In this document: one piece after another, positions 3,311 through 35,999 of the stretch
Position numbering within the stretch: the stretch's first letter is position 1
Layout of the letters: each line of letters begins with the position of its first letter
Source of the DNA: Hyphomicrobiales bacterium
Lineage (GTDB): Bacteria; Pseudomonadota; Alphaproteobacteria; Rhizobiales; Methyloligellaceae
DNA length: 64,000 nucleotides
Reading direction: 5' to 3'
Assembly: GCA_028280515.1 (NCBI GenBank)
Contig: JANQLP010000142.1
Location: forward strand, 1 to 64,000
Program-made: the position numbers and the translations under genes
Notes under the pieces: generated by a model
The model's input: only the letters and a program-made list of their open reading frames with translations
The model's database searches: none
Told to the model about the DNA's origin: nothing

Positions 3311-3326
3311 ATACAAAAACGCGAAT
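3311..3326 (-). promoter_or_regulatory. Candidate persulfide-regulator operator upstream of soxW
   Basis: On the minus strand this reads ATTC-N8-GTAT, one base from the ATTC-N8-GAAT pattern found at 9547 and 32778. It lies about 75 bases upstream of the thioredoxin gene at 3401, with AT-rich flanks in otherwise GC-rich DNA. Confidence 0.45.
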
Positions 3327-3400
3327 ATGTGCGACACTGCGGTCGCGGTTACGTGGGGTAAAGTAACCTCCAGACCGCTGAGCGGAGGGAGCGTCAGGCG

Positions 3401-4144
3401 ATGATCAGGCGGACAGAAATCGAAAACAGGTCGGGCGCGATTAGGGCTTTCCCGGCCGGCCGTGCCGCAATCGCAACGACCGGTGTTCTGATGCTGGCTC
3501 TGGCATGGTTTGCCGCCGGGACTGCCGCACTGGCGAGCGACGCATCGATCAAGCTGCCGCCGCCGATCGGGCCCGAGGAGCCGAAGGTCGAACCCTACAA
3601 GGGCGACGACAAGCTCTATCACCAGACATGGTTCAACCAGTCGTTCATGAACCTGCGGGAGGACTTCGAGGAGGCGAAGCGGGAAGGCAAGCGGTTCGCC
3701 GTCATCTTCGAACAGAACGGCTGCATCTACTGCGTGAAGATGCACAAGGACGTACTCGCGAAGAAGTACATCAACGACTATGTGCGCGAGAATTACCGGA
3801 TTCTGCAGATCAACATGTGGGGCGATCGCGAGGTGACCGATTTCGACGGCACCGTGCTCACCGAAAAGGAACTGGTGCGCCGCTGGCGTGTGATGTTCAC
3901 GCCCTGGATCGCCTTCTTCAAGGAAGATCTCACCGGCGACGAGGGTAAACCCGGCTCAGAGCTGCAGGTCATGAATATGAGCCTGGGGATCGGGCCTGGC
4001 ACGTTTTACGACGTGTTCACCTGGGTTCGGGTGAAGGGCTATGAAACCGATGAGCATTTTCAGCGCTTCCATATCCGCCGCCTGAACGAACGCGAGGCCA
4101 TCGCCAGGAAGCAGGCCGAAGACAAATCGAAAAACGTGAACTGA
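3401..4144 (+). CDS. soxW: SoxW-like periplasmic thioredoxin
   Basis: A thioredoxin-fold protein of 247 residues with an N-terminal hydrophobic anchor or signal (about 22-46) and a CIYC redox motif at 108-111, in the F-E-Q-N-G-C context seen in SoxW-type proteins of sulfur-oxidation clusters. It probably keeps cysteines of periplasmic Sox proteins (such as SoxY) reduced, fed by the CcdA/SoxV protein at 24326. It converges with a second SoxW-like gene (4164-4793) with only 19 bases between the stops. An ATTC-N8-NNAT element lies upstream. The family assignment is firm; the exact partner is inferred. Confidence 0.8.
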   Translation: MIRRTEIENRSGAIRAFPAGRAAIATTGVLMLALAWFAAGTAALASDASIKLPPPIGPEEPKVEPYKGDDKLYHQTWFNQSFMNLREDFEEAKREGKRFAVIFEQNGCIYCVKMHKDVLAKKYINDYVRENYRILQINMWGDREVTDFDGTVLTEKELVRRWRVMFTPWIAFFKEDLTGDEGKPGSELQVMNMSLGIGPGTFYDVFTWVRVKGYETDEHFQRFHIRRLNEREAIARKQAEDKSKNVN

Positions 4145-4163
4145 AGGCGCCCGCGCGGCAGGC

Positions 4164-4793
4164 TTACCAGAGCTCGACCTTCTTGCCCTGCGCCCGCAGC
4201 CGTTCCGCCTTGGCCTGCAGGAAGCGCTGGAAGTTGGTGGTTTTGTACTCACCGGAGCGGACGAACTCGAACGTCGACAGGAAGTGGAAGGGCTTCCAGT
4301 AGCCGACCAGCCGCCAGGCCTCGCCCTCGCGCCCCGGTTTGCCGAGCACCTCCTTCGCGTCGCGCGGGAAGAAGACCAGGGTGGGCGTGAAGTTGACCCG
4401 CCAGCGCTGGGCCAGCTCGCGTTCGCCCATTTCCTCGCCATCGAAATCGGTGACCCTGCGCGGACCCCAGAGGTCGAGCTGGAGGAGGTTGAAGTTCTCC
4501 GTGATGTACTTGACCGTTTCAGGATGGGCGAGATTGACCTTGTGGGTTTCCTTGCAATAGGGGCACCCGCGTTGTTCGAAGAGAATGGCGAACTGCTTGC
4601 CTGCGTCGCTTGCCTCTGTGATGTCGTCCCTCAGATCGAGGAACGACTGGTGGAACCAGGGCTGCTTGTAGAGGCCGTCATCGCCAACCTCCGGCTCCGC
4701 GCCGGCCGCAAGTGCGTCGATGCGTGTCCCGCTCGCCGCAACCAGTCCGGCACCGGCCGCCAAGGCGAACATGTTTCGCCGGGTGATCGTCAT
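4164..4793 (-). CDS. Second SoxW-like thioredoxin, Tat-type signal
   Basis: 209 residues. The start at 4793 is chosen because a G-G-A-G-G-G ribosome site precedes it and a twin-arginine signal (T-R-R-N-M-F) follows directly; a longer upstream reading frame has no such support. CPYC motif at 77-80. Its core aligns with the plus-strand SoxW at 3401 (shared W-F-x-Q-S-F, V-T-D-F-D-G and F-T-P motifs), so the two are diverged paralogues placed tail to tail. One uses Sec-like export and the other probably Tat, suggesting different client proteins. Confidence 0.8.
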   Translation of the reverse strand: MTITRRNMFALAAGAGLVAASGTRIDALAAGAEPEVGDDGLYKQPWFHQSFLDLRDDITEASDAGKQFAILFEQRGCPYCKETHKVNLAHPETVKYITENFNLLQLDLWGPRRVTDFDGEEMGERELAQRWRVNFTPTLVFFPRDAKEVLGKPGREGEAWRLVGYWKPFHFLSTFEFVRSGEYKTTNFQRFLQAKAERLRAQGKKVELW

Positions 4794-4921
4794 CTTGTGC
4801 CCTCCCTGATTGTCGCGCTGTCCCCTGTCCGGTGTCGACTTCTCATATGTCAAATCTAGCACACCGGAGACCGCCCCCAAAATGCGCGCCCGATGCAAGG
4901 GCCTTGATCGCCGGCCCGGTG

Positions 4922-7423: not shown

Positions 7424-7436
7424 GACTTTCCTCCCG

Positions 7437-7751: not shown

Positions 7752-7820
7752 TCACTCGAGCCCACGGAATTACGTCTTCAGGTGTCTGTCAGACCAATGC
7801 GTATGAAGTAAAATTCTCAT

Positions 7821-7836
7821 ATCACTATACGTGAAT
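7821..7836 (-). promoter_or_regulatory. Candidate operator for the fcc unit
   Basis: Minus-strand reading ATTC-N8-TGAT, the same form as the site at 11682. It sits about 70 bases upstream of the cytochrome c start codon in an AT-rich patch. Confidence 0.45.
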
Positions 7837-8046
7837 ATATATCATAGTTCGCGTCAGGCGAGTGTAAAACATTAACGCGCGGTGTGACATATTCACGCTA
7901 AACGGGTGATATCTCACATCGCCAGATTCGGCCTGAAGTGAGTTTTTTGGCTGTTTTCCGCCGAATTTCAGTCTTTCCCGTCTGCCCATGCCATATGCCT
8001 CCGCACCACAAGCTCAGCATCGGACGACATTAGCTATGGCGTTCAC

Positions 8047-8062
8047 ATTCAATAATTGATAT
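8047..8062 (+). promoter_or_regulatory. Candidate operator for the YeeE-type transporter
   Basis: ATTC-N8-ATAT with an 11-bp palindrome T-C-A-A-T-A-A-T-T-G-A inside (8049-8059), 42 bases before the chosen start codon. Its place close to the start would suit repression. Confidence 0.45.
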
Positions 8063-8103
8063 GTATAAATGTTTATGCGGTCGTTCGTCCGGAGCGTGAT
8101 GCC

Positions 8104-9207: not shown

Positions 9208-9219
9208 TGCGCGCGACGC

Positions 9220-9447: not shown

Positions 9448-9546
9448 GGTCCTGTCTAGCCTCCATGGTCAATTCGGCGGTGTGGTTTCGTCACCGAGGC
9501 CGGTGCTCCGGCCCGGATCGCGTGCCCCAACCGCCCTGTAATTCAT

Positions 9547-9562
9547 ATTCCGTTTTCTGAAT
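9547..9562 (-). promoter_or_regulatory. Exact ATTC-N8-GAAT element upstream of tusA
   Basis: A perfect inverted repeat ATTC/GAAT with an 8-base spacer, extended by further A/T on both sides. It lies 100 bases upstream of the tusA start. The pattern matches that described for SqrR-type ArsR persulfide sensors, two of which are encoded in the window. Confidence 0.6.
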
Positions 9563-9734
9563 GATTCAACCGTTGATTTTCCGGCCGGTCAAGAGGCCGC
9601 GCCGGATTTGACCGGAAACGATGGCCGTGCGGCATTTTGCGCCGCTCGCGCCGGGTGATCACTGACGATCCGCTTCGGCATTGGCGCCGCCTGTGCACAG
9701 GCGAGGTTCTGAGACCTTCGACACGCAAAAGGTG

Positions 9735-10106
9735 TCAGCGCACGCTCCCGAAGGACTCATCGGTGCTGCCCGGCGGCGGCACGAGGCCGGCCAGCCGGCA
9801 CCCTTGCGCGATCGGCCCTCCGGGCAGAATCTGAAACAGGTGCCTGCGGCCGCCCTTGTCGTCGAACCGTGCTTCCAGAGCATCCGCAAGGCGGCGCGCA
9901 GGCGGTTCCACATCTTCCGCATAACAGGCCTGAAGGACACGCATCACCTCCCAATGATCGTCGGTCAGATCGAGACCTTCTTCCGCCGCCTGTTTGGTGG
10001 CAAACGCCGGCGACCAGCCGCGCGGCGCGTGCTGAAAGGATTTGTCCCGCTCCTCCTGTTCGTTCGGGGCGAGGATGGCCTTCATGATTTCGTTTGCGTC
10101 AGGCAT
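9735..10106 (-). CDS. DsrC/TusE-family protein lacking the C-terminal cysteine
   Basis: 123 residues. The fold region (D-L-T-D-D-H-W-E-V and P-G-G-P-I-A-Q-G-C-R-L-A-G-L) matches DsrC/TusE. The inner cysteine is present (C103), but the position of the redox-partner cysteine at the end of the arm is serine (S114), and the chain runs on for nine more residues. It therefore cannot form the DsrC intramolecular disulfide or trisulfide and may act as a regulator or a different sulfur carrier. The complete DsrC is at 15594. Last gene of the tauD unit, 56 bases after the 69-residue gene. Confidence 0.85.
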   Translation of the reverse strand: MPDANEIMKAILAPNEQEERDKSFQHAPRGWSPAFATKQAAEEGLDLTDDHWEVMRVLQACYAEDVEPPARRLADALEARFDDKGGRRHLFQILPGGPIAQGCRLAGLVPPPGSTDESFGSVR

Positions 10107-10162
10107 GGGTCTTGCTCACTTTCCTGTTCTCCAACGGCCCCGACACGCGACCGCAGCTATAC

Positions 10163-10372
10163 CTATCCGGCCTGTTCGGCCCAGTTCGCCAGTGCAGATC
10201 CCCAACGGGCCGCGGTCGACGCATCGACGTCGAGGATCGTGAACCGGCGTCCTTCGCGAATGGTGATGCGGAGCAGCCGCATGCCACTCTCGAATTCCAC
10301 ATTGTCGAGCGTGATCTCCCGTCGGTACGGAGCCTCGAACCTGTCCAGCCGCGTGACCGTTTCGCCGCTCAC
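10163..10372 (-). CDS. Small conserved-looking protein of unknown function (69 aa)
   Basis: Not recognised with certainty. A compact soluble protein with a central F-E-S-G-M-R-L-L-R-I-T-I-R-E-G-R-R-F stretch of alternating hydrophobic and charged residues, suggesting a small beta sheet. Starts with GTG, the GTGA overlapping the stop of the preceding 64-residue gene, so the two are translationally coupled. Encoded between a TauD-type dioxygenase and a DsrC-like protein, which suggests a sulfur-related role. Confidence 0.7.
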   Translation of the reverse strand: MSGETVTRLDRFEAPYRREITLDNVEFESGMRLLRITIREGRRFTILDVDASTAARWGSALANWAEQAG

Positions 10373-10563
10373 TCCTTGTCACCCCAGTAGAACGCGGTCT
10401 CCAGCTTCAGCTCCCACTGGCGCGGCGTATCGCGGTAGTCGGGTTTCACGTCGAACTCGAGAAAGCGTTCGCCCTCCTTGCCGGTCTTGGCGACCAGCTT
10501 CACCAGATCGTCGAAGCACTGCACTTCAGGGTGACGAATGATCAGTTCGCTCAATTGAACCAC
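10369..10563 (-). CDS. Small protein of unknown function (64 aa)
   Basis: Not recognised. The GTG start at 10563 is chosen because a clear G-G-A-G-G site precedes it by five bases; an upstream ATG at 10605 lies inside the end of the dioxygenase gene. Contains one cysteine (E-V-Q-C-F-D) and ends in W-E-L-K-L-E-T-A-F-Y-W-G-D-K-E. It overlaps the next gene by four bases. Fourteen bases separate it from the dioxygenase stop, so tauD-like, this gene and the next two form one operon. Confidence 0.7.
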   Translation of the reverse strand: MVQLSELIIRHPEVQCFDDLVKLVAKTGKEGERFLEFDVKPDYRDTPRQWELKLETAFYWGDKE

Positions 10564-10577
10564 GGTTTTCCTCCCAG

Positions 10578-11555
10578 TTACGGCCGGTCCGGCCCATCGA
10601 GACATCCGGTCCCGGCGATTTGGTCCTGGTAGCGGATCCGGTACAGCAGACGCCCGCTCGATGCGGTCGAAGAGGGCGCCCCGTCGAAACCGGCCCGGGC
10701 GTGCAGCACGTTGTTGCAGATGATCCCCTGGCCCGGCTCCAGCTTGTGCCGAAATATGAACGGCTCCCCGCCCGCGAGCAGGTCCGTAATGAACGCAACG
10801 GCATCGCGGGTGTCGGGATCATGGCGCCACGCGATGTACCGCCTGCGTGCGGTGTAGCGCATCCGAAGCATTCCGCTTCTGCGGTCCACACTATACACGG
10901 GTCCAACGCTTTCAGGCCTGACGCTGCCGTCTGCTTCATGGTTGGCGGGGATGGTCATGGCCTCGTCATGCATCAGGGCGGCAATAAAACGCGGGTTCTC
11001 GTCGCGCAGGCGGATATAGGCAATCTCCGGATCGAGCAGAGCGTTCTCACCGCCGCGCTCGGCGTTGCGGCAGCAATGAAGAATGAAGGATCGAATGCGG
11101 TCTTCCGGTGCGTTGTAGTATCCGTCGGTGTGCCAGCTCAGCGGACGGTTGGTGTATGGAATGTATCCGCTGCGCTTGTTGTCCCGGGCGATCTCCAGCG
11201 CAACGACGCCGTCATTCGCGGCGGAGCGGTGGCCTTCCATCCGGTCAAGCCCGAACGCCCGCGCAAAGGTCAACAGATCGTCTCTGACCGCGCTCGGGTC
11301 CAGGCGTTCCCGTCGCGTGACATAGATCGCCATGTTGGCCTTGCCGCACAGTGTCGTAACCGCGGCCAGTTCCGTCGCGGTGGGGTGCGCGAGATCGGCA
11401 ATCTCGACAAAAAGCTCCTCCGGGAGCTGCGGATAGCCGGCAAGTTTCGCATCCCGCCACCGATGGTAGGCGTCGTCGTCGCCAGGATCGAACGGGCCGC
11501 GGACGCAACTTGCGGCACCTTTCTGATGGCTCGTGTTGAGAGCGATGGATGACAT
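10578..11555 (-). CDS. TauD/TfdA-family Fe(II)/2-oxoglutarate-dependent dioxygenase
   Basis: 325 residues from the ATG at 11555. Iron ligands H142 and D144 in a W-H-T-D-G-Y-Y motif and a distal H285 in N-N-V-L-H-A-R-A-G-F fit the family facial triad; R292-R298 supply candidate 2-oxoglutarate contacts. Family members oxidise taurine, alkyl sulfates, betaine-like or aryloxy compounds; the substrate here is unknown. First gene of a four-gene minus-strand operon ending in a DsrC-like gene and divergent from dsrA. Longer starts into the dsrA coding region (up to 11981) are rejected. Confidence 0.85.
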   Translation of the reverse strand: MSSIALNTSHQKGAASCVRGPFDPGDDDAYHRWRDAKLAGYPQLPEELFVEIADLAHPTATELAAVTTLCGKANMAIYVTRRERLDPSAVRDDLLTFARAFGLDRMEGHRSAANDGVVALEIARDNKRSGYIPYTNRPLSWHTDGYYNAPEDRIRSFILHCCRNAERGGENALLDPEIAYIRLRDENPRFIAALMHDEAMTIPANHEADGSVRPESVGPVYSVDRRSGMLRMRYTARRRYIAWRHDPDTRDAVAFITDLLAGGEPFIFRHKLEPGQGIICNNVLHARAGFDGAPSSTASSGRLLYRIRYQDQIAGTGCLDGPDRP

Positions 11556-11681
11556 TGATTTCACCGCAAGGGTTCGAAACTCAAACTCTTCAGGGCGCGG
11601 TTTCGGCCCTCTGTTCCGCGCCATGTACGCGATCCCATTCCGCGCACAGAGGAACCTGAACCAAACCGCATCATAATTGAT

Positions 11682-11697
11682 ATATTCAAAAATTGTG
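11682..11697. promoter_or_regulatory. Candidate operator in the tauD-like/dsrA divergent promoter
   Basis: ATTC-N8-TGAT within an extremely AT-rich 37-base patch (11671-11707), giving an imperfect inverted repeat A-T-A-T-T-C-A-A/T-T-G-T-G-A-T-A-T. It is 111 bases upstream of dsrA and about 125 from the dioxygenase start, so it could serve both units. Confidence 0.5.
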
Positions 11698-11808
11698 ATA
11701 TAATAATATGACAAAGTATCGCTGTGAACCGTCCGGTCTCGAAAACGCAAGCCGGGTTCGTATCCGGAGGCCAGAAAATCCGGCGGATCACGAGGAGGAA
11801 CAGGGTCA

Positions 11809-13158: not shown

Positions 13159-13217
13159 CCGGTGGTTCAGGGCGCCGGAGGCGAGGCGCATCCCGAACGG
13201 CCCAAGGGGAGAGAGTT

Positions 13218-25063: not shown

Positions 25064-25091
25064 GGCTGGCTCCCCCGGCCAGAGATCACAT

Positions 25092-25107
25092 ATTCATGAT
25101 ATTAAAT
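25092..25107. promoter_or_regulatory. Candidate operator between soxV and arsR
   Basis: ATTC-N8-AAAT inside a wider perfect-ended inverted repeat (CATATT at 25089, AATATG ending 25110). A second inverted repeat with 7-bp arms, TTCAGTT (25117-25123) and AACTGAA (25138-25144), lies beside it. Suits autoregulation of the ArsR gene and control of soxV. Confidence 0.5.
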
Positions 25108-25253
25108 ATGTCAGTTTTCAGTTGTCATCAACTCACGAACTGAATATCGCTCATCCCCGCCGATCCGGTCTGCGCTATGGCGTCAGACCGAACGGCTCAA
25201 AACGGGGCTGACAACGGCCGGGAACTCCCGCCGGGAATGACGAGGGACTGGGG

Positions 25254-25683: not shown

Positions 25684-27321
25684 TCAAACGGCTTCCGGTT
25701 CCATCTTGATCGCGCCGCACGGACATTCGGCGGCGCACATGCCGCAGCCCTTGCAGTAGTCGTAGTTGAACTGGAAGCGCTTGCCGGGGCCAAGCTTGAT
25801 AACCGCGTTGTCCGGGCAGATGCCGTAGCAATTGTCGCATTCGAAACAGTTGCCGCAGGACAGGCACCGCCGCGCCTCGTACAGCGCATTGTCCTCGGTC
25901 AGTCCCTGCAGGACCTCCTCGAAGCCGGTCTGGCGACGTACCAGATCGAGCTGCGGCTGCTCGGTTTTTGGTGCGTCTGTATAGTACCAGGTGTTGAGGT
26001 TCCCGAAGTCGGCGATCTCGTGTTTCTCGGGCGGCGCGTAACGTACGCCGCGCAGCCACGCGTCGATATTGCGCGCCGCCTTCTTGCCGTGGCCGACGGC
26101 GACCGTGACGGTACGCTCCGCCGGGACCATATCGCCGCCGGCGAACAGGCCCTCGCGTCCCGTCATCATCTGGTCGCTCACGGACACCACGCCATCTCTG
26201 GCGATTTCGACGCCCGGCACCTGCTCCAGGAAGCTTGTGTCCACATCCTGGCCGAGAGCGAGGATCAACGTGTCGGCCTCGATGGTCTCGAATTCGCCGG
26301 TCGGCTGCGGCCGACCGTTTTCGTCGATTTCCATCTTTTCGACCGTGAAGCTCGTCTCGTCGATCTCCTTGATGGTGCGCAGCCAGTGGATCATCACGCC
26401 TTCTTCTTCCGCTTCCGTGGCCTCGAAGTCGTGCGCCGGCATTTCCTTGCGTGAGCGGCGATAGACGATCATGGACTCCTGAACGCCGAGCCGTTTCGCG
26501 GTCCGCGCCACGTCCATTGCGGTGTTGCCCCCGCCATAGACGACGACGCGGCGGCCGAGCTGCGGCGGTTCCGCGCCCGTTTCCATGTCACGCAGGACGC
26601 TGACCGCATCGAGGATCTTCCCGGCCGCATAGCCCGGAATCTCGATGCGCTTGGCCAGATGCGCGCCGACCGCCACGAACACGGCGTCGAATCCGTCCTT
26701 TTCGAAGGCCGCCTCGATGTCCTCGACCTTGGTGTTGAGCTCGAGTTTCACACCCATATCGACGATGCGCTGAACCTCATAGTCGAGCACGTCCCGCGGC
26801 AGCCGGTATTTCGGGATCCCGAACCGCATCATGCCGCCGGCCATCGGTCCGGCCTCGCGAACGGTCACGTCGTGGCCCAACCGCGTGAGGTGATAAGCCG
26901 CCGACAAGCCGCTCGGACCTGCGCCGACAACCAGAACCCGTTTGCCGGATTTCTCGGCCGCGAATTTCGGTTTCCACTTCTTTTCCCAGGCCGTGCGGCC
27001 AAGGAAGCGTTCAATGGCGTGGATGCCGACCGCCTCGTCGAGCTGCGCGCGGTTGCACACGTCCTCGCACGGGTGGTAGCAGACGCGCCCCATGATGCCC
27101 GGCAGGGGGTTGTCCTGCATCAGCACCTGCCACGCCTCTTCGTAGTCGCCCGATTCCGCGTGGAACAGCCATTGCTGGATGTTCTCCCCGGCAGGGCAGG
27201 CATTGTTGCAGGGCGGCAGGCGGTCGACGTAAACGGGGCGTTCGGTACGCCATGTTCCCGTCTCGTTGGCGAGGCTGGTGCCGGGATCGAGCGTGATGGC
27301 GAAGGGAAGCTGCTTGTTCAT
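25684..27321 (-). CDS. DsrL/NfnB-like NAD(P)H:ferredoxin oxidoreductase subunit
   Basis: 545 residues: N-terminal Fe-S domain (P-P-C-N-N-A-C-P-A-G), FAD site G-A-G-P-S-G-L, NAD(P) site G-G-G-N-T-A-M-D, and C-terminal clusters C-L-S-C-G-N-C-F-E-C and C-K-G-C-G-M-C-A-A-E-C. The same domain order as DsrL but about 100 residues shorter. It overlaps the beta subunit gene of a 2-oxoacid:ferredoxin oxidoreductase by four bases, so it probably exchanges electrons between that enzyme's ferredoxin and NAD(P)H. Confidence 0.85.
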   Translation of the reverse strand: MNKQLPFAITLDPGTSLANETGTWRTERPVYVDRLPPCNNACPAGENIQQWLFHAESGDYEEAWQVLMQDNPLPGIMGRVCYHPCEDVCNRAQLDEAVGIHAIERFLGRTAWEKKWKPKFAAEKSGKRVLVVGAGPSGLSAAYHLTRLGHDVTVREAGPMAGGMMRFGIPKYRLPRDVLDYEVQRIVDMGVKLELNTKVEDIEAAFEKDGFDAVFVAVGAHLAKRIEIPGYAAGKILDAVSVLRDMETGAEPPQLGRRVVVYGGGNTAMDVARTAKRLGVQESMIVYRRSRKEMPAHDFEATEAEEEGVMIHWLRTIKEIDETSFTVEKMEIDENGRPQPTGEFETIEADTLILALGQDVDTSFLEQVPGVEIARDGVVSVSDQMMTGREGLFAGGDMVPAERTVTVAVGHGKKAARNIDAWLRGVRYAPPEKHEIADFGNLNTWYYTDAPKTEQPQLDLVRRQTGFEEVLQGLTEDNALYEARRCLSCGNCFECDNCYGICPDNAVIKLGPGKRFQFNYDYCKGCGMCAAECPCGAIKMEPEAV

Positions 27322-28337
27322 GGCGTCTCCCTCTCGTCCAGCAGGTTGAAACGCTCGATGTTGGCGTCGGCGATGCGCTGGATCGCGGCGCGACGCTGCT
27401 CGTGGCCGCCGCCCTTCTTGAACAGGTGTGCAAAGCGGCGTTGTGTTTTCAGGTATTCGTCCACCGGCACCTTTCGCCGGATCTTCTTGGACGCCGTGAC
27501 TTCGCCATACGCGGCTTCGTACAGGGGGAACAAGCCGCTCTCAACCGCGAGCCGCGCGATGCGGATGGTATCACACGGGGCTGAACCCCAGCCGAGCGGG
27601 CACGGCACCATAATGTGAATGTAGCGCGATCCGGAGATATCCATCGCCTTCGTGACCTTGGCTTCCAGATCGTGAAGATCGGCGACGCTGGCGGTCGCCA
27701 CATAGGGAATGTTGTGGGCCATGGCGATCAGCGGCATGTTTTTTCCGGAGCCGATGATATTGCCGGGCTCTTCGCCCAGCGCCGGTGTCGTGGCGGTGTG
27801 TGCATGCGGCGGGGTCGCCGAGGATCGCTGCACGCCCGTATTCATGTAGGCCTCGTTGTCGTAACAGATGTAAAGGACGTCGTCGTTGCGCTCGAACATG
27901 CCGGACAGGCAGCCGAAGCCGATATCGGTGGTCCCGCCATCGCCGCCCTGCGCAACCACCTTGACGTCGTTGCGGCCCTTGCGCCGCATGGCGGCGGCAA
28001 CGCCGGTCGCGACCGCCGGCGCGTTGCCGAACAGGGAATGCAGCCAGGGGATCTGCCAGGACGTCTCCGGATAAGGCGTCGTGAACACCTCCAGGCATCC
28101 GGTCGCATTGATCGCCACCAATTGCCCCTTCGTTGCGCGCATGGCGGCGTCTAGCGCATAGCGTGCGCCGAGCGCCTCGCCGCAGCCCTGGCAGGCCCGG
28201 TGCCCCGACGTAATGGCGTTGGAGCGGTCAATCGATGCCTGCACGCTGCGGGCATCGTCTTCCATCAGCCTGTTGCCGACGGTGAATGTGCCGGTCTGAT
28301 AGAACTTGACCCGTTGCAGGGCGCTTTCGTCGCTCAT
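27318..28337 (-). CDS. 2-oxoacid:ferredoxin oxidoreductase, beta (TPP) subunit
   Basis: 339 residues from the ATG at 28337. Cysteines A-C-Q-G-C-G near the N-terminus and the thiamine-pyrophosphate motif G-D-G-G-T-T-D-I-G fit the PorB type. Whether pyruvate or another 2-oxoacid is used cannot be told from sequence. Middle gene of a four-gene operon. Confidence 0.9.
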   Translation of the reverse strand: MSDESALQRVKFYQTGTFTVGNRLMEDDARSVQASIDRSNAITSGHRACQGCGEALGARYALDAAMRATKGQLVAINATGCLEVFTTPYPETSWQIPWLHSLFGNAPAVATGVAAAMRRKGRNDVKVVAQGGDGGTTDIGFGCLSGMFERNDDVLYICYDNEAYMNTGVQRSSATPPHAHTATTPALGEEPGNIIGSGKNMPLIAMAHNIPYVATASVADLHDLEAKVTKAMDISGSRYIHIMVPCPLGWGSAPCDTIRIARLAVESGLFPLYEAAYGEVTASKKIRRKVPVDEYLKTQRRFAHLFKKGGGHEQRRAAIQRIADANIERFNLLDERETP

Positions 28338-28350
28338 GTCTGCGCTCCCC

Positions 28351-29604
28351 TCAGTACTGCCCAGAGCCCGACGCGGCCAGGGTCTTGAGAATGTTCTCGG
28401 CCGTGGGGCCGGACCTGCGGGTTTCCGCAGCGCGGGCGATCTCCTGCGCCACAACCTTTTCGTCGAGGTCGAGAAACTGGACGTCCGGCAGTTCGCCGTT
28501 CGCCGCACCGTTGATGACCCGCGCGATGGAGTCCATGGTGATGGGGCGGCCGCCAAGCCCTGCAATGACGGTATAGACGGGCAAGGGCGCTTCCCGCAGC
28601 GCCATACGGACATTCGAGGCGACGACGCCGCCGAGGCCGGGAGCCAGGCTTTTCTCCACAACGACGACGTTCCGGGCGCCGGATAAGGCGTCCCTCAATT
28701 CGGCAAGCGGGAAGGGCCGGAACGAACAGACGCTGATGGAGCCGACGGGCATGCCCTCATCGCGCATCTCGTCCACGACCTCCTTGATCGTGCCGTTGAC
28801 TGAGCCGAGCGCGACGACGATCGTCTCTGCGCCGTCCGTGCGGTAGGGATGGATCAGGCCGCCGGATTCCCGGCCGAACACGCCCTTGAAGACTTCCGCG
28901 ATCTCCGGGATGAGCTGCAACGCCTGGCGCTGTTTCTCATGCGCCAGATAGCGCACCTCGGTGAACGCTTCCGGCCCGACCATGGCGCCGATGGAATAGG
29001 GATCTGCGGGGTCGAGCACCTGCACCGGGTCGTAGGGCGGCAGGAACGCGTCGACTTCCTCCTGTGTGGGAATGTCGACCCGCTCATAGGCATGGGTGAG
29101 AATGAACCCGTCGATGCAGACCATGACCGGGCAACTCAACTCCTCGGCGAGACGAAAAGCCTGGATGTGAAGATCGACCGCCTCCTGGTTGGTCTCGGCA
29201 AAGAGCTGGATCCAGCCTGCGTCCTTCATGGACATGGCGTCGGTGTGATCGTTCCAGATGTTGATCGGCGCGCCGATCGCGCGGTTGCCGATGGTCATCA
29301 CGATCGGCAGGCCGAGCCCACCGGCGTTGTAGACGGCCTCCGCCATATACAGCAGACCCTGGCTGGCGGTGGCGGTGTAGGCGCGCGCACCGGCGGCCGA
29401 CGCGCCTATGGCGACGGAAAGGGCGGCGAATTCGGATTCGACATTGATGAACTCGCAGTTCTCCAGCTCGCCCTTTTTCACGATCGCGCCTACGCCCTCG
29501 ACGATGTGGGTCTGCGGCGTGATCGGATAGGCGCAAACGACCTCGGGCCGGCATAGTGCAATGGCCTCGGCAACTGCAATCGACCCCTCAACCTGCTTGA
29601 GCAC
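28351..29604 (-). CDS. 2-oxoacid:ferredoxin oxidoreductase, alpha subunit
   Basis: 417 residues. N-terminal Y-P-I-T-P-Q-T motif and the V-E-S-E-F-A-A segment are typical of PorA. GTG start behind a G-G-A-A-G-G site. Resembles pyruvate-type alpha subunits more than 2-oxoglutarate-type in length and in having a separate gamma gene. Confidence 0.9.
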   Translation of the reverse strand: MLKQVEGSIAVAEAIALCRPEVVCAYPITPQTHIVEGVGAIVKKGELENCEFINVESEFAALSVAIGASAAGARAYTATASQGLLYMAEAVYNAGGLGLPIVMTIGNRAIGAPINIWNDHTDAMSMKDAGWIQLFAETNQEAVDLHIQAFRLAEELSCPVMVCIDGFILTHAYERVDIPTQEEVDAFLPPYDPVQVLDPADPYSIGAMVGPEAFTEVRYLAHEKQRQALQLIPEIAEVFKGVFGRESGGLIHPYRTDGAETIVVALGSVNGTIKEVVDEMRDEGMPVGSISVCSFRPFPLAELRDALSGARNVVVVEKSLAPGLGGVVASNVRMALREAPLPVYTVIAGLGGRPITMDSIARVINGAANGELPDVQFLDLDEKVVAQEIARAAETRRSGPTAENILKTLAASGSGQY

Positions 29605-29624
29605 AGCCTTCCTCCCTTACACTG

Positions 29625-30185
29625 TTACGCCGCCTTTGCGATGTCGAACGCCTCCCGGGCGGCTGCGACGTTCCCCGTGCCCACATCGCCGGGGAACTTC
29701 TGATGGATCGCCTGCTCCACCGACGAGAAACGGATCTGTCCGGAGATGGCGGCAAATCCACCCAAAAGCGCGGCATTCGGCACCGGGCGGCCGACATGTT
29801 TCATCGCCAGTTCGGTTGCCCCCACATCACAAACGTGATGCGGCGGGAAGCGCGCGACGAATTCGGAAATTCCCAAATCCTCGAAGGATCGGCGCGAATT
29901 GATGAGGATGTATCCTTGCGGACTAAGCCCTTTGAAGACGTCGACGGAGTGAAGCAGCGTCGGGTCCTGAATGATCAGGGCGTCGGGCACGCTGATCGGC
30001 TCGCGCGAGCGGATTTCCTTCTCGTCTATCCGGCAATAGGACACGACCGGGGCGCCCATGCGTTCCGAGCCGAAGCTCGGAAAGGCCTGTGCGTGCTTGC
30101 CTTCCAGAAACGCAGCGACGGACAGGAGCTCCGCCGCAGTTACGACGCCCTGGCCGCCACGGCCATGGATACGCACCTGAAACAT
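29625..30185 (-). CDS. 2-oxoacid:ferredoxin oxidoreductase, gamma subunit
   Basis: 186 residues, starting with the family-typical I-H-G-R-G-G-Q-G motif. The ATG is chosen over an upstream TTG because the family motif begins at once. First gene of the por-type operon; no ATTC-type element is visible upstream, unlike the sulfur units. Confidence 0.9.
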   Translation of the reverse strand: MFQVRIHGRGGQGVVTAAELLSVAAFLEGKHAQAFPSFGSERMGAPVVSYCRIDEKEIRSREPISVPDALIIQDPTLLHSVDVFKGLSPQGYILINSRRSFEDLGISEFVARFPPHHVCDVGATELAMKHVGRPVPNAALLGGFAAISGQIRFSSVEQAIHQKFPGDVGTGNVAAAREAFDIAKAA

Positions 30186-30328
30186 GGTTCCCCCTGGTTC
30201 GGTGGCCAATCGGGGCTGCCCACCAGACGCAAAGGGCAATCTAGGCTGCGCGCGAAACGGGAACCTTGACTTAGCTCAACCTCTTTGACGTATCGGCCGT
30301 GAGGTGCGCGCGGGCTCGCGCAATGCGT

Positions 30329-30811
30329 TCAACTTGTGCCGGCCGCTTCTTTGATGATGTCCTCAAGGAGCTTGTTGACGGCCTTTTTGGCCTCTTCCGA
30401 CGCGTCCGATCCGTCTTCGTCCAGCTCGCGGAAGCCGATATAGACGGTGCCCGGCTGATCAGCGCGCTCATAGTAGAAGATCACATAAGGGCAGTAAGCG
30501 ATATTGGCCGGATCGGCCTCCATCATCTTGCGCGACAGGACGGCGGAGCAGAACTGAACGGTTTCCGCGCCGGTGTAGATATTCTTGTCGGACCCCACAT
30601 CCTTTCCGGTTCGCTCCAGCATGTCGCCGATCATCGCGTTGTAATCGATCACGAAGCCGCGGTTGACGATGGCGTCGGAGATGTCCTGTTTCACATCCTC
30701 GAACGATGCCTTGGCCTTGATCACCTTGATGTCATCATCATCGGCCTGAAGCGGTGCGATGAGCCCCAGCGAGACGAAGCCCGCGACGATCAGTGTAGAC
30801 AGTCTGTACAT
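30329..30811 (-). CDS. Secreted DUF302-like protein after soxD
   Basis: 160 residues with an N-terminal signal peptide ending near A-D. The body (F-E-D-V-K-Q-D-I-S-D-A-I-V-N-R-G onward, with F-C-S-A and Y-C-P-Y-V-I-F-Y) resembles DUF302 proteins, found next to sulfur genes in other bacteria. Two cysteines. G-G-A-G-G-T site before the ATG. Last gene of the soxYZBCD unit, 22 bases after soxD. Confidence 0.7.
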   Translation of the reverse strand: MYRLSTLIVAGFVSLGLIAPLQADDDDIKVIKAKASFEDVKQDISDAIVNRGFVIDYNAMIGDMLERTGKDVGSDKNIYTGAETVQFCSAVLSRKMMEADPANIAYCPYVIFYYERADQPGTVYIGFRELDEDGSDASEEAKKAVNKLLEDIIKEAAGTS

Positions 30812-30833
30812 TTCACACCTCCATGTGGTGTTT

Positions 30834-31490
30834 TCACTCGATGCTGGCAGACGGGTTTTTCTCGTCCGTCGGCGTGACGTCGATGATGGTGGCACGCCTG
30901 GTGATCTTCACATCCTTCTTGCAGTTTTTCATGCAAACCGTCGCGGCGTTGTGGCCTGGCGTGTCCGGCCGCGGGTCGTCGGTGAAGTTCTTCTCATTGG
31001 GCAGGCGGATGGACGTGAAGTTTGCATTGTCGAGTTCGAACTTCTCATCCACGAGGTCGTTCATGTGCAGCAGATAGGCGATGATCGCATACATTTCGTC
31101 TGGTGAGAGCGACTGAGCATCGCCGAACGGCATCGCCCGGTAGATGTAATCGTATGCGGTCGACAGATACGGCCAATAGGACCCCATCGTCTTTTTCGGA
31201 TTTTCTGAAGCGAGGGTCCCGTGACCGCCCGCAAGGACGGGCCAGCGGTCGACGCCCTCGCCGAACTCGCCATGGCAGGCACTGCACCGTTCTTCGAACA
31301 GCTGTTCGCCTTGTGCGACCGTTCCCTTGCCGTCCGGCAGACCTTGTCCGTCGGGACGCACGTCAATGTCCCACGCCTTGACCTCCTCCGGCGTCGCCTG
31401 CCGGCCGATATCGAGCTTTCCAGCGGCCGCAGGCAGGGTCCAGAGCACGCACAAGCAAAGGGCGATGGCCAACCTAAGACACTTCGACAT
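30834..31490 (-). CDS. soxD: SoxD, cytochrome c subunit of sulfane dehydrogenase
   Basis: 218 residues. The ATG at 31490 is preferred to a TTG six bases earlier. Signal peptide, then one heme motif CSACH at 69-73 and a methionine ligand candidate in R-A-M-P-F-G-D-A. Much shorter than the two-domain SoxD of Paracoccus: only one heme domain. The C-terminal part carries a C-M-K-N-C pair. Overlaps the end of soxC by 17 bases. Confidence 0.88.
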   Translation of the reverse strand: MSKCLRLAIALCLCVLWTLPAAAGKLDIGRQATPEEVKAWDIDVRPDGQGLPDGKGTVAQGEQLFEERCSACHGEFGEGVDRWPVLAGGHGTLASENPKKTMGSYWPYLSTAYDYIYRAMPFGDAQSLSPDEMYAIIAYLLHMNDLVDEKFELDNANFTSIRLPNEKNFTDDPRPDTPGHNAATVCMKNCKKDVKITRRATIIDVTPTDEKNPSASIE

Positions 31491-32751
31491 TCTCAACCTC
31501 GCCCGTCTTCATCACGTGCCATGTCTGGATGCCGTTGTTGTGATAGATGGAGTTCGTGCCGCGCGCCGTGCGCAGCTCCGCCTTGGTGGGTTGCACATAG
31601 CCGATGGAGTCGATCGCCCGCGACTGCAGCAGGAGCGGTGATCCGTCCCAGTCGAACTCGTAGTAGAACCGGTGCAGTGCCTTGTGCAGCCTGGGACCGT
31701 CGATGCGGGCCGCGTCCCAGTTCCTGCCGCCGTCGAGTGACACGTCCACGCGCTCGATCGTTCCCTGGCCGGACCATGCGAGGCCGCTGATCACCGTGTG
31801 ACCCTTGCCGTGTGTGATCGGCGCCTGCGGGCTCGGGCTGGTAATCACTGACTTGCAATCCATCACCCAGGTGAAACGGCGCGATTTGCCGTTCTCCATC
31901 AGGTCGGTGTATTTGGACGTTTCTTCGCGGGTGTGCCACGGCTTGTCGCCAACCTCGAGCCGGCGCAGCCACTTCACCCACATATTGCCTTCCCAGCCCG
32001 GAACCACCAGGCGCACGGGATATCCCTGCTCCGGACGCAACGCTTCGCCATTCATTTTGAACGCCACCAGACAGTCATAGAGCGCCTTCTCAAGCGGGAT
32101 CGAGCGGTTCATGCCCGACGCATCGCCGCCTTCCGCCATGACCCATTTTGCATTGGTCCTGAGGCCTGCTTCGTCGAGGATCAGCTTCAGCGGTACGCCG
32201 GTGTACTGGACGCAGTGGATCATGCCTTGTGTGTACTGGCAGCCATTGAGCTGTGAGCCCCGCCATTCCATGCCGGAGTTGGCGGCACATTCGAGGAAGT
32301 AGATCTTGTTGGTGCGCGGAAACCGTTTGATGTCGTCCAGCGTGAAGATCATCGGCTTGTCGACGAGACCGTTGATCATCAGCCGGTAATCCCGCGGATT
32401 GACGTCGGCGATGCCCGCATGGTGGCGTTCGAAGCACAAGCCGTTCGGCGTGATGATGCCTTCGAGCTCGTGCAGCGGTGTGAAATTCACCGAGCTTTCG
32501 GTCGATGCCGTCAGCCACCGTACGCTGCGGCGGATCACGTCCTTCTCATATTCCGCTGGCATTCCGTAGGGACGGGCATCCACCCCGTCACCCAGATATT
32601 TGGACCAGTCCGCAACGTTGGGCGGCAGATTCTCGCCGTTCGCGCGGGCTTGTCCGTCGAATGCGCCGGCCGCGATGACCCCGCCGCTCGCAGCAACAGA
32701 CTTGAGCAACCGGCGGCGTGACATACCTGCCTTGTCTGACGACCGCAGCAT
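31474..32751 (-). CDS. soxC: SoxC, molybdenum subunit of sulfane dehydrogenase
   Basis: 425 residues, Tat signal (S-R-R-R-L-L-K), sulfite-oxidase fold with the molybdenum-ligand cysteine C155 in Y-F-L-E-C-A-A-N-S. With SoxD it oxidises SoxY-bound sulfane sulfur, which normally means complete oxidation without sulfur globules. Own candidate promoter between soxB and soxC (operator at 32778). Confidence 0.94.
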   Translation of the reverse strand: MLRSSDKAGMSRRRLLKSVAASGGVIAAGAFDGQARANGENLPPNVADWSKYLGDGVDARPYGMPAEYEKDVIRRSVRWLTASTESSVNFTPLHELEGIITPNGLCFERHHAGIADVNPRDYRLMINGLVDKPMIFTLDDIKRFPRTNKIYFLECAANSGMEWRGSQLNGCQYTQGMIHCVQYTGVPLKLILDEAGLRTNAKWVMAEGGDASGMNRSIPLEKALYDCLVAFKMNGEALRPEQGYPVRLVVPGWEGNMWVKWLRRLEVGDKPWHTREETSKYTDLMENGKSRRFTWVMDCKSVITSPSPQAPITHGKGHTVISGLAWSGQGTIERVDVSLDGGRNWDAARIDGPRLHKALHRFYYEFDWDGSPLLLQSRAIDSIGYVQPTKAELRTARGTNSIYHNNGIQTWHVMKTGEVENVEVS

Positions 32752-32777
32752 GAGTTCCCTCCAGGAAGATCATTTAC

Positions 32778-32793
32778 ATTCAAATTATTGAAT
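32778..32793 (-). promoter_or_regulatory. Exact ATTC-N8-GAAT operator upstream of soxC
   Basis: Perfect 6-bp arms ATTCAA/TTGAAT around ATTA, 26 bases before the soxC start codon and 22 bases after the soxB stop. It indicates a regulated internal promoter that could uncouple soxCD from soxYZB. Confidence 0.6.
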
Positions 32794-32814
32794 ATAACAA
32801 TTCGGAGCCGTTGG

Positions 32815-34503
32815 CTAGACCCCGATCACCTTGACGGCGTCATTCTGCTCTATGCGTACCGCCGGATGTGCCTTGAGGTATGTTTCGACGACCTCCCATA
32901 TCGGCGGGCCCTCCGCATTCTCGTTGATGCTGGCCCAACCGGTGACGGTATACGCGCGCGAGGGATCGATCGCGGAGCCGTCCTTCAGCAACGTCATGTC
33001 GGAGATGCGTTTTCCAATCGGCTTGACCGGATCGATGGTGTAGCCGAGGCCGCCGACACGCACCATGTCGCCGCCCTGCTGATAGTAGGGGTCCGGATTG
33101 AAGAGGTTGTCGGCGACATCCTCCAAAACCTCTTTCAGGAACGCGCCCGTCATCGTGGTCCGATAGGCGGTCGGGTAGGTCATGGCGCAAGCGTTGTAGA
33201 GGGCCTCGCGGGTGATCTCCTCGCCGGGCAGAAGGCTCGGGCCCCAACGGAATCCGGGCGAAAGCGCGATTTCCGCGTCACGTACCTCCAGCATTGCGTC
33301 ACAGAACAGATCGTCGATCGTCCCGTTGAAGTTGCCGCGCCGGTAGAGAAGGCTGTCGGTGCGGCCAATTACTTCCGTCAGATCGCTCTGATACGGCCCG
33401 CGGATCTTGTCGACGAGCGCGGCGACCTCCGCGTCCGGCTCGATGACATCAGAGAAGACGGGGATAAGGCGATACCGGTAGTCGAGAACGTTGCCGCCCT
33501 TCACGTCCAGGTCGAGACGCGAGACGAACTTGCCGCTTGATCCGGACGCGATCAGAAGCGTGTTGCCCACCTTGAGCGGCGCCGGCAACGCGTCATGGGT
33601 GTGACCGCAGAGGACGACATCGATGCCACTGACGCGCGACGCCAGCTTCCGGTCCACATCAAATCCGTTGTGGGACAGCAGAATGACCAGTTCGGCCCCA
33701 TTGTTGCGGGCCGCTGATACCTGCCTGGCGATCTCGTCCTCGCGAATGCCGAACGACCAGTTGGGGATCATCCAGCGGGGATTGGCAATCGGGGTGTAGG
33801 GAAAGGCCTGTCCGATGACGGCGATCTTCACGCCGCCGCGCTCGAACATCTTGACCGGCTCGAACGCTGGCTCGTTCCATTCATTGTCGAATATGTTCGC
33901 GCCGAGGAACGTAAAGGGGAGCTCGTCGACGATCTCCGTGACCCGGTCGGCGCCGAGGGTGAACTCCCAATGGCCGGTCATGGCGTCCGGCTTGAGGGCG
34001 TTCATGATCTCCACCATGTCGCCGCCCTTGGTCTGTAGAGACGTGTAGCTGCCCTGCCACGTATCTCCGCCATCGAGCAGAAGCGTGTTGTCGGGCCGTT
34101 CCGCGCGGATGTGGTTCAAGACCGTCGCGATCCGGTCGATGCCGCCCATGCGGCCATATTCACGCGCGAGGGCGACGAAGGATTCCGAGGACAGCGCGTA
34201 GGCCTCCGGCGATCCGGGCGCGATCTTGTAATAGGCGAGGAGATCGCTGCCGGTGATATGCGGCGGCTTGCCCTCTGCGTCTCCGACCCCGAGATTGATC
34301 GAGGGTTCCCGGAACCAGATCGGTTTCAACTGGGCGTGGATATCCGTCAGATGGGCGATCGTGACGTTGCCGAACGGTGTGAAGCCGAGCAGGTCTTGCT
34401 GCGTGATCTTCTGCTGGGCAGCCAGCTGCGCCAGTGGCGCCGACGCGCCGAAAATGGCGCCTGTCGCTGCAACAACCTGCAAAAACTCCCGACGGGAAAT
34501 CAT
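32815..34503 (-). CDS. soxB: SoxB, thiosulfohydrolase
   Basis: 562 residues, 5'-nucleotidase-like dimanganese hydrolase releasing sulfate from SoxY-bound S-sulfonate. Metal and phosphate-type motifs T-D-I-H-A-Q, G-G-D-T-W-Q-G, G-H-W-E-F, L-S-H-N-G and G-H-T-H-D are all present. N-terminal signal with S-R-R-E-F-L. Directly follows soxZ, with no soxA in between. Confidence 0.95.
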   Translation of the reverse strand: MISRREFLQVVAATGAIFGASAPLAQLAAQQKITQQDLLGFTPFGNVTIAHLTDIHAQLKPIWFREPSINLGVGDAEGKPPHITGSDLLAYYKIAPGSPEAYALSSESFVALAREYGRMGGIDRIATVLNHIRAERPDNTLLLDGGDTWQGSYTSLQTKGGDMVEIMNALKPDAMTGHWEFTLGADRVTEIVDELPFTFLGANIFDNEWNEPAFEPVKMFERGGVKIAVIGQAFPYTPIANPRWMIPNWSFGIREDEIARQVSAARNNGAELVILLSHNGFDVDRKLASRVSGIDVVLCGHTHDALPAPLKVGNTLLIASGSSGKFVSRLDLDVKGGNVLDYRYRLIPVFSDVIEPDAEVAALVDKIRGPYQSDLTEVIGRTDSLLYRRGNFNGTIDDLFCDAMLEVRDAEIALSPGFRWGPSLLPGEEITREALYNACAMTYPTAYRTTMTGAFLKEVLEDVADNLFNPDPYYQQGGDMVRVGGLGYTIDPVKPIGKRISDMTLLKDGSAIDPSRAYTVTGWASINENAEGPPIWEVVETYLKAHPAVRIEQNDAVKVIGV

Positions 34504-34556
34504 CTACGCCTCCGGAAAACGTTGCGGCCCGTCCGGGCGCTCTTGCAGCGCCTTCG

Positions 34557-34889
34557 TCAGTTCACCGTCAGTTTCGACTTTTTGGAGAAGGACTCGCCCT
34601 TGTCGTCGATCCAGACGAATTCGAACTCGCCGGACTTGTCAGCCTTCATCGAGAACTGGAAGTACGGATTGGCCGAGATCGCCGGGTCAATATCGACAGA
34701 GAACACGTCCTCGCCATCGAACTTCACGATGAACTTGTTGATGATGTGCCGTGGCACGGGCTTGCCGGTCTTCTTGTCCTTGCGAAGCCCGGTTTCCATC
34801 TTGTGGGAGATCAGCGTCTTGATGTTGACGACATCGCCCTTGGCTGCGGTTTTCGGGACTTTGACGCGTGGTTTGGGTTTCTTTGCCAT
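34557..34889 (-). CDS. soxZ: SoxZ
   Basis: 110 residues. Partner of SoxY; beta-sandwich protein with no signal peptide, exported with SoxY. Family hallmarks P-R-H-I-I-N-K-F and N-P-Y-F-Q-F-S. A lysine-rich start (K-K-P-K-P-R-V-K-V-P-K). Confidence 0.94.
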   Translation of the reverse strand: MAKKPKPRVKVPKTAAKGDVVNIKTLISHKMETGLRKDKKTGKPVPRHIINKFIVKFDGEDVFSVDIDPAISANPYFQFSMKADKSGEFEFVWIDDKGESFSKKSKLTVN

Positions 34890-34912
34890 TTCTCTGTGCT
34901 CCTCGAGATCGC

Positions 34913-35365
34913 TCAGCCGCCGCAGCCGCCGATGGTGACCTTCACCTGGCGCTTCGTCATGTGGAACGAGCCGTCTGACATTTCCGCGACGGCAACGATA
35001 TTCTGGGTCTTTGCGAGGCGCATGCGGGTCGACGCTTCGGCGACGCCGCTGCGGGGCGTGAAGTTGAAGGTCGCAACCTCAGGGCGCGGGTTGCCGTCGG
35101 CGACGATGATGACCCGTTTGACGTAGTTGTCCTTGGTCATCGGGCTGTCGACGGAAACGGACAGCGGGACGGTGCTGCCGTTCTCGGCGATTTCCGGCAT
35201 CTGCAACGTGATCTTGCCGTCGGTGGCCGCCTTTCCGCCGGTGAACTTCGCAATCAGAGCGTTGGCCTCCTCGACCGCAGCCCATGCAACATAGGGCGCA
35301 AACATCGCTGCTGCGCCGGCGGCTGCGCCCAAGGCGAGCGTTTCACGTCTGGTAACTTCTTTCAT
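34913..35365 (-). CDS. soxY: SoxY, sulfur-carrier protein
   Basis: 150 residues from the ATG at 35365 (G-A-G-G-A site; an earlier start overlaps the previous gene). Tat signal (T-R-R-E-T-L) and the C-terminal G-G-C-G-G swinging arm whose cysteine binds the sulfur substrate. Confidence 0.95.
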   Translation of the reverse strand: MKEVTRRETLALGAAAGAAAMFAPYVAWAAVEEANALIAKFTGGKAATDGKITLQMPEIAENGSTVPLSVSVDSPMTKDNYVKRVIIVADGNPRPEVATFNFTPRSGVAEASTRMRLAKTQNIVAVAEMSDGSFHMTKRQVKVTIGGCGG

Positions 35366-35376
35366 GTCAGGTTTCC

Positions 35377-35679
35377 TCACTCTTCCGGAGTTTGAAGATA
35401 GGCAATGATGTTCTCGAACTTCCTGCGGGTGTGCGCCCCAGTCTTCAACATATACGCAGCCTTCAACATATAGCAGCCGGGCACGGTCGTCCGATCGCCG
35501 AATACGGCCTTACCGTGGAACGGCCTGTTCGTCATGTCCTTGTCGGTGATCGGGTTGCTGACCTTGAGGTTGTCGATCTCGACGTGATCCGGGGTCAGTG
35601 CCGGCACCTCCACCGGCCCGCCTGCAAGAATTACGGCGGACGGAATACCGGCCACAACCGTACTGTCGGGTGTCTTCAT
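35377..35679 (-). CDS. Heme-free protein of unknown function in the soxX position
   Basis: 100 residues, not recognised. It occupies the place of soxX before soxY but has no C-x-x-C-H motif and no clear signal peptide. A single cysteine lies in V-P-G-C-Y-M-L-K. The sequence Y-M-L-K-A-A-Y-M-L-K reflects a fresh tandem duplication of about 17-18 bases (around 35443-35477). The C-terminal E-N-I-I-A-Y-L-Q-T resembles the end of class I cytochromes, which may hint at a decayed or divergent SoxX, but that is weak. Clear G-A-G-G-G-A-G-G site before the ATG. Confidence 0.65.
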   Translation of the reverse strand: MKTPDSTVVAGIPSAVILAGGPVEVPALTPDHVEIDNLKVSNPITDKDMTNRPFHGKAVFGDRTTVPGCYMLKAAYMLKTGAHTRRKFENIIAYLQTPEE

Positions 35680-35999
35680 GCTGGTGTCTCCCTCCCTCGA
35701 GACCCATCGGGATCCGGCTTTGCGCCTATTCGTGGATTCCACTGATGACACCATAGAGCCTGCCAGACACAAACGGCAAAATCAATGGTCACATGCGAAT
35801 ATTTGAATAAGTAAGCCTCCAAACGGCGTATTTGTCGCAGAACTCGGTCAATCCGCCGGAATTGTGTCTGGAGTAACGGGTGAGCAGGCTTTTGACCTTG
35901 CATGTCAAACCGGAAACAGGGCTTGCAGCGCGACACTGCGCCCGCCGTTGCGATACATTCAATATATGTAATGTGAAGAATCTCCTTTATGATCAGTGC
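35680..35999. other. Divergent regulatory region between the sox operon and soxS
   Basis: No gene. Two AT-rich patches: 35797-35810 (two GAAT half sites in tandem) and 35955-35974. Probably the main sox promoter region. Confidence 0.6.
35957..35972. promoter_or_regulatory. Candidate operator upstream of soxS
   Basis: ATTC-N8-TAAT within a larger inverted repeat, ACATT at 35955 and AATGT ending 35974. It is 28 bases before the soxS start, where binding would block transcription of soxS-soxR. Confidence 0.5.

Follow-up and report, generated by a model that had tools for sequence, protein, structure and literature searches.

The 64-kb window analyzed here (positions 1 to 64,000 of contig JANQLP010000142.1, from a Hyphomicrobiales bacterium) contains an island of sulfur oxidation genes in which nine copies of one palindromic element, AYATTC-N8-GAATRT, are spread across 33 kb of promoter regions. 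These nine palindromes are likely the operators of two closely related repressors of the SoxR/SqrR type (ArsR family), which are encoded in the island and would be released from DNA by sulfane sulfur. We also consider it probable that the reverse-Dsr operon is a direct target of such a repressor, through an operator lying across its −35 and −10 boxes that is kept in much of the order, and that the 22-bp form CATATTC-N8-GAATATG would then act as a common switch for periplasmic Sox, flavocytochrome c, the import of sulfur and cytoplasmic reverse Dsr, joined in some relatives by ATP sulfurylase. Control of the reverse-Dsr genes by sulfur supply has been poorly described so far. If our proposal is correct, one type of sensor would set both halves of sulfur oxidation, the periplasmic and the cytoplasmic, at the same time.

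An initial annotation of the stretch had described eight sites of the form ATTC-N8-NNAT in front of almost every sulfur transcription unit. All eight are present within 2 bases of the places given there (for its "11682" site, the ATTC starts at 11684). Two of them, 3311 and 7821, match on the minus strand, and each of the eight is intergenic and in a promoter region. The sites are real, but the string is too loose to define them, with 39 matches in the window against 27.0 expected and as many in 3 of 100 shuffles. The refined element AYATTC-N8-GAATRT is common to all nine sulfur sites, most copies being imperfect. From left to right, and without assigned strand, the palindromes occupy 3309..3328 (1 mismatch), 73 bp before a soxW-like thioredoxin gene (start 3401, plus strand); 7819..7838 (2 mismatches), 68 bp before fccAB (fccA start 7751, minus strand); 8045..8064 (2 mismatches), 40 bp before the YeeE/SoxT-type transporter gene soxT1 (start 8104, plus strand); 9545..9564 (1 mismatch), 98 bp before tusA (start 9447, minus strand); and 11682..11701 (2 mismatches), 108 bp before dsrA (start 11809, plus strand), with a TauD-like gene in divergent orientation. 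The remaining four lie at 25090..25109 (1 mismatch), between soxV (start 25063, minus strand, 27 bp) and the first arsR gene (start 25254, plus strand, 145 bp); at 32776..32795 (no mismatch), in the soxB-soxC gap 25 bp before soxC (start 32751, minus strand); at 35791..35810 (2 mismatches), 112 bp before a minus-strand soxY, soxZ, soxB unit whose first start is at about 35679, a site absent from the initial list; and at 35955..35974 (1 mismatch), 26 bp before the soxS-arsR-YeeE/SoxT series (soxS start 36000, plus strand). The names soxW, soxS and soxV rest on domain, similarity and place, and the unit boundaries are our estimates.

With up to 2 mismatches, the element has 12 matches in the window against 3.4 expected, a number that none of 100 shuffles reached; ten are intergenic (the nine sulfur promoter sites and one at 2328) and two coding (33893 and 48350). 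When spacers of 2 to 16 bases were compared in the intergenic DNA of the window at up to 1 mismatch, there were 5 matches at N8, 3 at N16 and 0 at the 13 others. The three N16 matches had no counterpart in the relatives' dsrA promoters that were read and were treated as chance. The 16 island intergenic regions used for simulation (2,076 bp; the soxW region lies outside the range used) hold 4 sites with at most 1 mismatch and 8 with at most 2, against Markov means of 0.022 and 0.25, and 1,000 Markov simulations never reached either number. The outer arms alone, AYAT-N12-ATRT, match 7 times in the 64 kb, every time at one of the listed sulfur sites; outer-arm spacers N14 and N16 give 8 matches each, elsewhere or overlapping. 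Between 36 and 64 kb, intergenic DNA contains no N8 match with up to 2 mismatches, in agreement with the earlier statement that the cbb, TRAP and Liv units (so named there) are not preceded by a site. Intergenic regions were taken from our own simple gene caller, which is rough; its calls in the window were corrected by hand (ten genes added; miscalled antisense frames at 4284, 10620 and 27615 corrected), and foreign loci were used as called.

The inner string ATTC-N8-GAAT is exact at two of the nine sites, namely the copies already annotated at 9547 and 32778, and imperfect at seven. Taken alone with up to 1 mismatch it was rejected as a descriptor, its 21 matches in the window being near chance (23.2 expected; as many in 75 of 100 shuffles), and the 5.41-Mb genome contains 51 exact copies. 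A third exact copy in the window, at 1062-1077 near its start, was not in the initial list and lies outside the stretch claimed there; the extended arms do not fit it within 2 mismatches.

The sites recur in relatives of the same genus or family, whose island stretches (G001, G003, G005, G006, G007, G010 and G012) provided 32 promoters before orthologues of eight unit heads. At N8, a site with no more than 2 mismatches is present in 23 of the 32 promoters and one with no more than 1 in 12; the 23 correspond to 21 distinct sites, two divergent regions of G001 each counting for two heads. Seven other spacers (5 to 12) gave at most 6 and 4 of the same 32 promoters at the two thresholds, and eight internal or control genes gave 1 and 0 of 32. 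Counterparts of the tusA site were found in six of the seven relatives, and sites with up to 2 mismatches at nearly equal distance from the YeeE/SoxT gene in G001, G003, G006 and G012; the soxW site is also present in G001, the soxS site has counterparts in G001 and G003, and the soxV/arsR site has one in G001. In the alignments of the tusA and dsrA sites (7 and 8 rows), the arms are mostly kept and the core drifts. Conservation was 91% in the arms, 55% in the core and 43% in the flanks (G001 fccA dropped), values that are inflated because the sites were picked by their arms. At least 4 of the 32 genome matches of G001 (27 of the 32 were examined) fall inside its 20-kb island, for which the chance is about 2e−5.

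Exact copies of the extended palindrome number 11 in nine genomes. Three precede soxC (in our genome, G000, and in G001 and G004), two precede the ATP sulfurylase gene sat (G007 and G012), one lies where an aminotransferase gene begins (G003), two were called coding (G001 and G005), and two more are in G005 and G007. A further one in G006 (L194, G006:C41:70999-71018) precedes an alpha/beta-hydrolase gene on a contig that also has the sat and the SoxR-like gene of that genome. Exact copies in front of sat in two relatives point to a gain and loss of targets between close species. In G001, whose assembly is 84% complete, soxV, one site, soxS, soxR and soxT2 stand side by side; in the window, soxV and soxS lie apart, each accompanied by a separate arsR copy and a separate site, from which we infer a split after duplication.

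Loci beyond these relatives were collected with the first ArsR protein of the island (P0001), which retrieved at least 80 soxR loci from other Alphaproteobacteria; 80 were analyzed. With up to 1 mismatch, the element occurs 32 times in their 205,716 intergenic bases and 14 times in 1,262,056 coding bases, and 11 other spacers have 0 to 6 intergenic matches each. The 32 intergenic sites are distributed over 26 loci; 26 of the sites have, within 1.3 kb, a gene related to a sox or thioredoxin gene of the island, and the other 6 (three loci) have none. In 672 of these intergenic regions, a set free of redundancy (116,349 bp), we also enumerated palindromes without a prior consensus, using all half-sites of 4, 5 and 6 bases at 17 spacers. 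Among 4-mers ATAT-N12-ATAT ranks first (32 occurrences; mean at other spacers, 5.2) and ATTC-N8-GAAT second (20; mean, 2.5), and among 5-mers CATAT-N12-ATATG ranks first (7; mean, 0.09); all three fit within a single element, CATATTC-N8-GAATATG. The element does not lead among 6-mers, where ACATTC-N8-GAATGT is tenth (3; mean, 0.09). A motif search in 73 stretches upstream of foreign soxR genes had returned coding-like sequences, because a gene lies directly upstream of soxR, and was replaced by the intergenic regions. A locus of Bradyrhizobium japonicum (L052) has an exact palindrome between soxV and a series of thioredoxin, cytochrome c and SoxY genes. A Rhizobiaceae metagenome-assembled genome has exact palindromes at L055:8311 and 11775, near peroxiredoxin-like and SulP sulfate permease genes, and L060 and L061 have two sites each that are similar to these.

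The initial annotation had suggested scanning with a matrix and comparing hits in promoters with those in coding DNA, and the outcome is mixed. In the window, a matrix from 28 distinct foreign sites, which is only partly independent as these were picked with the window-derived consensus, places all nine sites among its ten best matches in the 64 kb. The ten are all intergenic and score at least 17.4 bits, the one besides the nine sites (11690) overlapping the dsrA site, and the eleventh (15.8 bits) is coding. Across the genome, the consensus with up to 1 mismatch shows little excess over other spacers, as detailed below.

Nine proteins of the genome match the ArsR domain model, and the two that are SoxR-like are both encoded in the island. 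The first (P0001; 25254..25622, plus strand) is assigned by profile, structure and alignment matches, and the second (P0002; 36432..36773, plus strand) by structure and alignment matches. They are 78% identical over 103 residues, and the segment QPTVSQQLARLRADRL, which we take to be the recognition helix from general knowledge of the ArsR family, is the same in both. Each has a cysteine pair of the SqrR/SoxR type (Cys49/Cys115 and Cys40/Cys106) that aligns with two cysteines of the nearest solved ArsR structures. The best matches for both proteins in the Protein Data Bank (PDB) are 6o8k and 13ct, presumably structures of Rhodobacter capsulatus SqrR. P0001 belongs to the ArsR/SmtB winged-helix proteins (85.1 bits against NF033788; cutoff, 55) and falls below the cutoff of the NCBIfam BigR equivalog (110.7 bits against NF040642; cutoff, 155). 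The gene neighborhoods are those of SoxR/SqrR-type regulators, with soxS-arsR-YeeE at 36000-37921 and the other arsR divergent from soxV, and ATTC-N8-GAAT is found in the predicted target promoters with spacer-specific enrichment. The spacer controls, the orthologous promoters, the palindrome enumeration, the cysteines and the identical helix segment thus agree, and these sequence tests support the earlier claim that a single regulon of this type joins sox, dsr, fcc and the transporters.

We infer from these sequences a mechanism in which both ArsR proteins would bind the nine sites, the two paralogues using the same ones, and would repress the promoters of sox, dsr, fcc, tusA and soxT. Sulfane sulfur would bridge the two cysteines, upon which the repressors would leave the DNA and the whole pathway would be turned on together. 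The signal would presumably be a persulfide, with soxS and a SoxT transporter passing it on as in Hyphomicrobium; in H. denitrificans a SoxT transporter is a signal relay (PMC11582611). A real dimeric regulator could also act in another way, with only one paralogue using the sites or with the promoters divided between the two. We regard this as rather unlikely, since QPTVSQQLARLRADRL is identical in the two proteins, and relatives with one SoxR-like match each (G001, G003, G006 and G012) carry sites at several of these promoters. Some division of labor would fit the arms, which differ by promoter (TGATAT at dsrA and fcc, GAATAT at tusA and soxW), and has a precedent in H. denitrificans, where the fragments bound in vitro by SoxR and by sHdrR are the same and the gene sets that the two affect in vivo differ (PMC12423496).

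Between 3 and 16 kb, the sequence that most resembles a promoter is TTGATA-16-TATAAT (11677..11704, plus strand; 11 of 12 consensus positions, TG before the −10 box). It is located upstream of dsrA, and the operator-like site there covers its spacer and the edges of both boxes. A repressor bound across the spacer and hexamer edges would likely exclude RNA polymerase. Among 21 relatives from across the order (a set without G113, in which dsrA is split at contig ends; L142, L143), 13 have the outer arms AYAT-N12-ATRT upstream of dsrA, and the next spacer, N14, is found in 8 of 21, partly as overlapping ATATAT. The dsrA promoters L131, L134 and L136 (G041, G088 and G077) have two overlapping ATAT-N12-ATAT dyads offset by 16 bp with a common middle arm, which look as if two dimers sat side by side.

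The overlap at dsrA raises the question of whether the sites are AT-rich core-promoter sequence in a GC-rich genome, where −35 and −10 boxes with AT-rich spacers mimic a loose palindrome. The near-chance counts of ATTC-N8-NNAT and ATTC-N8-GAAT in the window, the position of the dsrA site on TTGATA-16-TATAAT with its TG, and the similar N8 and N7 counts in the genome speak for such mimicry, which we nevertheless hold to be improbable. Simulated intergenic regions of the same composition never attained the observed counts, and other spacers failed in the window, the relatives and the foreign loci alike. In addition, the −10-like TATAAT of G003 and G012 is 2 bases further from the TGATAT arm than that of G000 and G001, and the arm stays. 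A regulator of the FNR/CRP type, whose motif is TTGAT-N4-ATCAA, is a most improbable source of the AT-rich dyads, as its 4 window matches (1.1 expected), one of which overlaps the soxT1 site at 8056 with 1 mismatch, account for one of the nine sites, and enrichment is seen at N8 for ATTC arms or at N12 for ATAT arms. The inner arms are also the half-site quoted for SqrR (PMC9774250).

Several observations weigh against operators of SoxR/SqrR-type repressors as the explanation. In the whole genome, the element with up to 1 mismatch has 22 matches at N8, 19 at N7 and 11 at N9, which is little excess (N7 and N9 served as spacer controls; the reversed pattern is an unfair one, its half-site CTTA differing in composition). 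Five of the 22 are in the island, and among the 17 outside, 11 were examined (L106-L116), 6 being called intergenic and 5 coding; the neighbors of L106 are a lipase-like and a glycosyltransferase gene. The dsrA, fcc and soxT1 sites carry 2 mismatches each, and the TGATAT arm at dsrA partly coincides with the extended −10 box. Nine of the 32 promoters of the relatives fail the 2-mismatch threshold, namely soxV in G003, G007 and G012, soxW in G003, soxT1 in G007 and G010, tusA in G010, and dsrA in G005 and G007 (3 mismatches, outer arms kept). The outer arms are missing upstream of dsrA in 8 of the 21 relatives, one of which has only 318 bases available; 54 of the 80 foreign soxR loci lack an intergenic match at the 1-mismatch threshold; and the 20 kb around sat in our own genome contain no intergenic site. 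Since the N8 count in the genome shows little excess over those at N7 and N9, and the outside matches examined are both intergenic and coding, the consensus without promoter location predicts no genome-wide regulon. If the proposed operators are real, the extended palindrome would be a marker of such regulons that is usable only together with promoter location and N8 spacing.

Much of the proposed system is familiar. SqrR and the SoxR and sHdrR proteins of H. denitrificans already provide the type of regulator, the half-site and a coupling of periplasmic with cytoplasmic sulfur oxidation. In the latter species, too, two related ArsR repressors with a cysteine pair serve one sulfur oxidation island, SoxR reaches genes of the cytoplasmic pathway besides sox, and soxS, soxR and soxT are arranged together (PMC10451225, PMC12423496). 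SoxR binds four of five island fragments there, and with polysulfide it no longer binds the soxA-soxY fragment (PMC10451225). The comparison covers genes and regulators; the cytoplasmic pathway is sHdr in H. denitrificans and reverse Dsr here, and in our island the flavocytochrome c and tusA promoters carry sites. For R. capsulatus SqrR, the deduced site is the same ATTC-N8-GAAT (PMC9774250), whereas the site here is longer than the quoted one by about three bases on each side and the gene set consists of sox, dsr, fcc, tusA and soxT. In Bradyrhizobium diazoefficiens, SoxR likewise represses soxS, soxV, soxW and soxY1, which are derepressed in the soxR mutant (PMC5748708); the parts of that paper compared do not mention dsr genes, unlike the island described here with its dsr genes. 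BigR and YgaV share the ArsR family and the conserved cysteine pair, and a sequence similar to ATTC-N8-GAAT lies inside the YgaV footprint on ygaV (PMC9774250), but their target genes differ from those here, and P0001, as noted, scores below the BigR cutoff.

Control by persulfide-responsive repressors is thus known for sox and shdr genes, and the new part is its predicted reach to the reverse-Dsr genes. The presence of the candidate element at flavocytochrome c, at sat in two relatives, and in a form extended outward by ATAT beyond the quoted half-site would, as far as the literature searched here goes, also be new. Among the open-access papers listed in our searches on dsr together with SoxR, ArsR or a repressor, no title or abstract opening mentions a SoxR-type operator at dsrAB.

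Further features of the island concern the genes next to these sites. The second arsR gene is flanked by the soxS-like gene (36000..36422, plus strand), which has no Pfam match and is named by place and by similarity among relatives, and by a YeeE/SoxT-family transporter gene (36812..37921, plus strand; PF04143, 178.8 bits). The por-type genes (29625-30239, 28351-29604 and 27318-28661) and a large gene of the flavin/Fe-S type (25684-27321) come after soxC and a gene for a cytochrome c, all in the minus-strand direction. The initial annotation saw no site before the por units, and they have indeed none of their own, but they may belong to the soxC unit: the stretch from soxC to the flavin/Fe-S-type gene (25684-32751, minus strand) has gaps of 89 and 20 bp and otherwise overlaps, so these genes could be read from the soxC promoter on the same strand. 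A terminator-like hairpin at 32802-32825 (minus strand) separates soxB from the soxC operator and, if it acts, would make soxC a separate unit; such hairpins are about as frequent in shuffles.

Divergent from dsrA, positions 9735-11552 (minus strand) encode a member of the TauD family, two small proteins, one of them DUF6967, and a DsrC-like protein. DsrC has a C-terminal cysteine, which the DsrC-like protein encoded here lacks while matching PF04358. The TauD-like gene adjoins dsrA in all 7 of the relatives compared.

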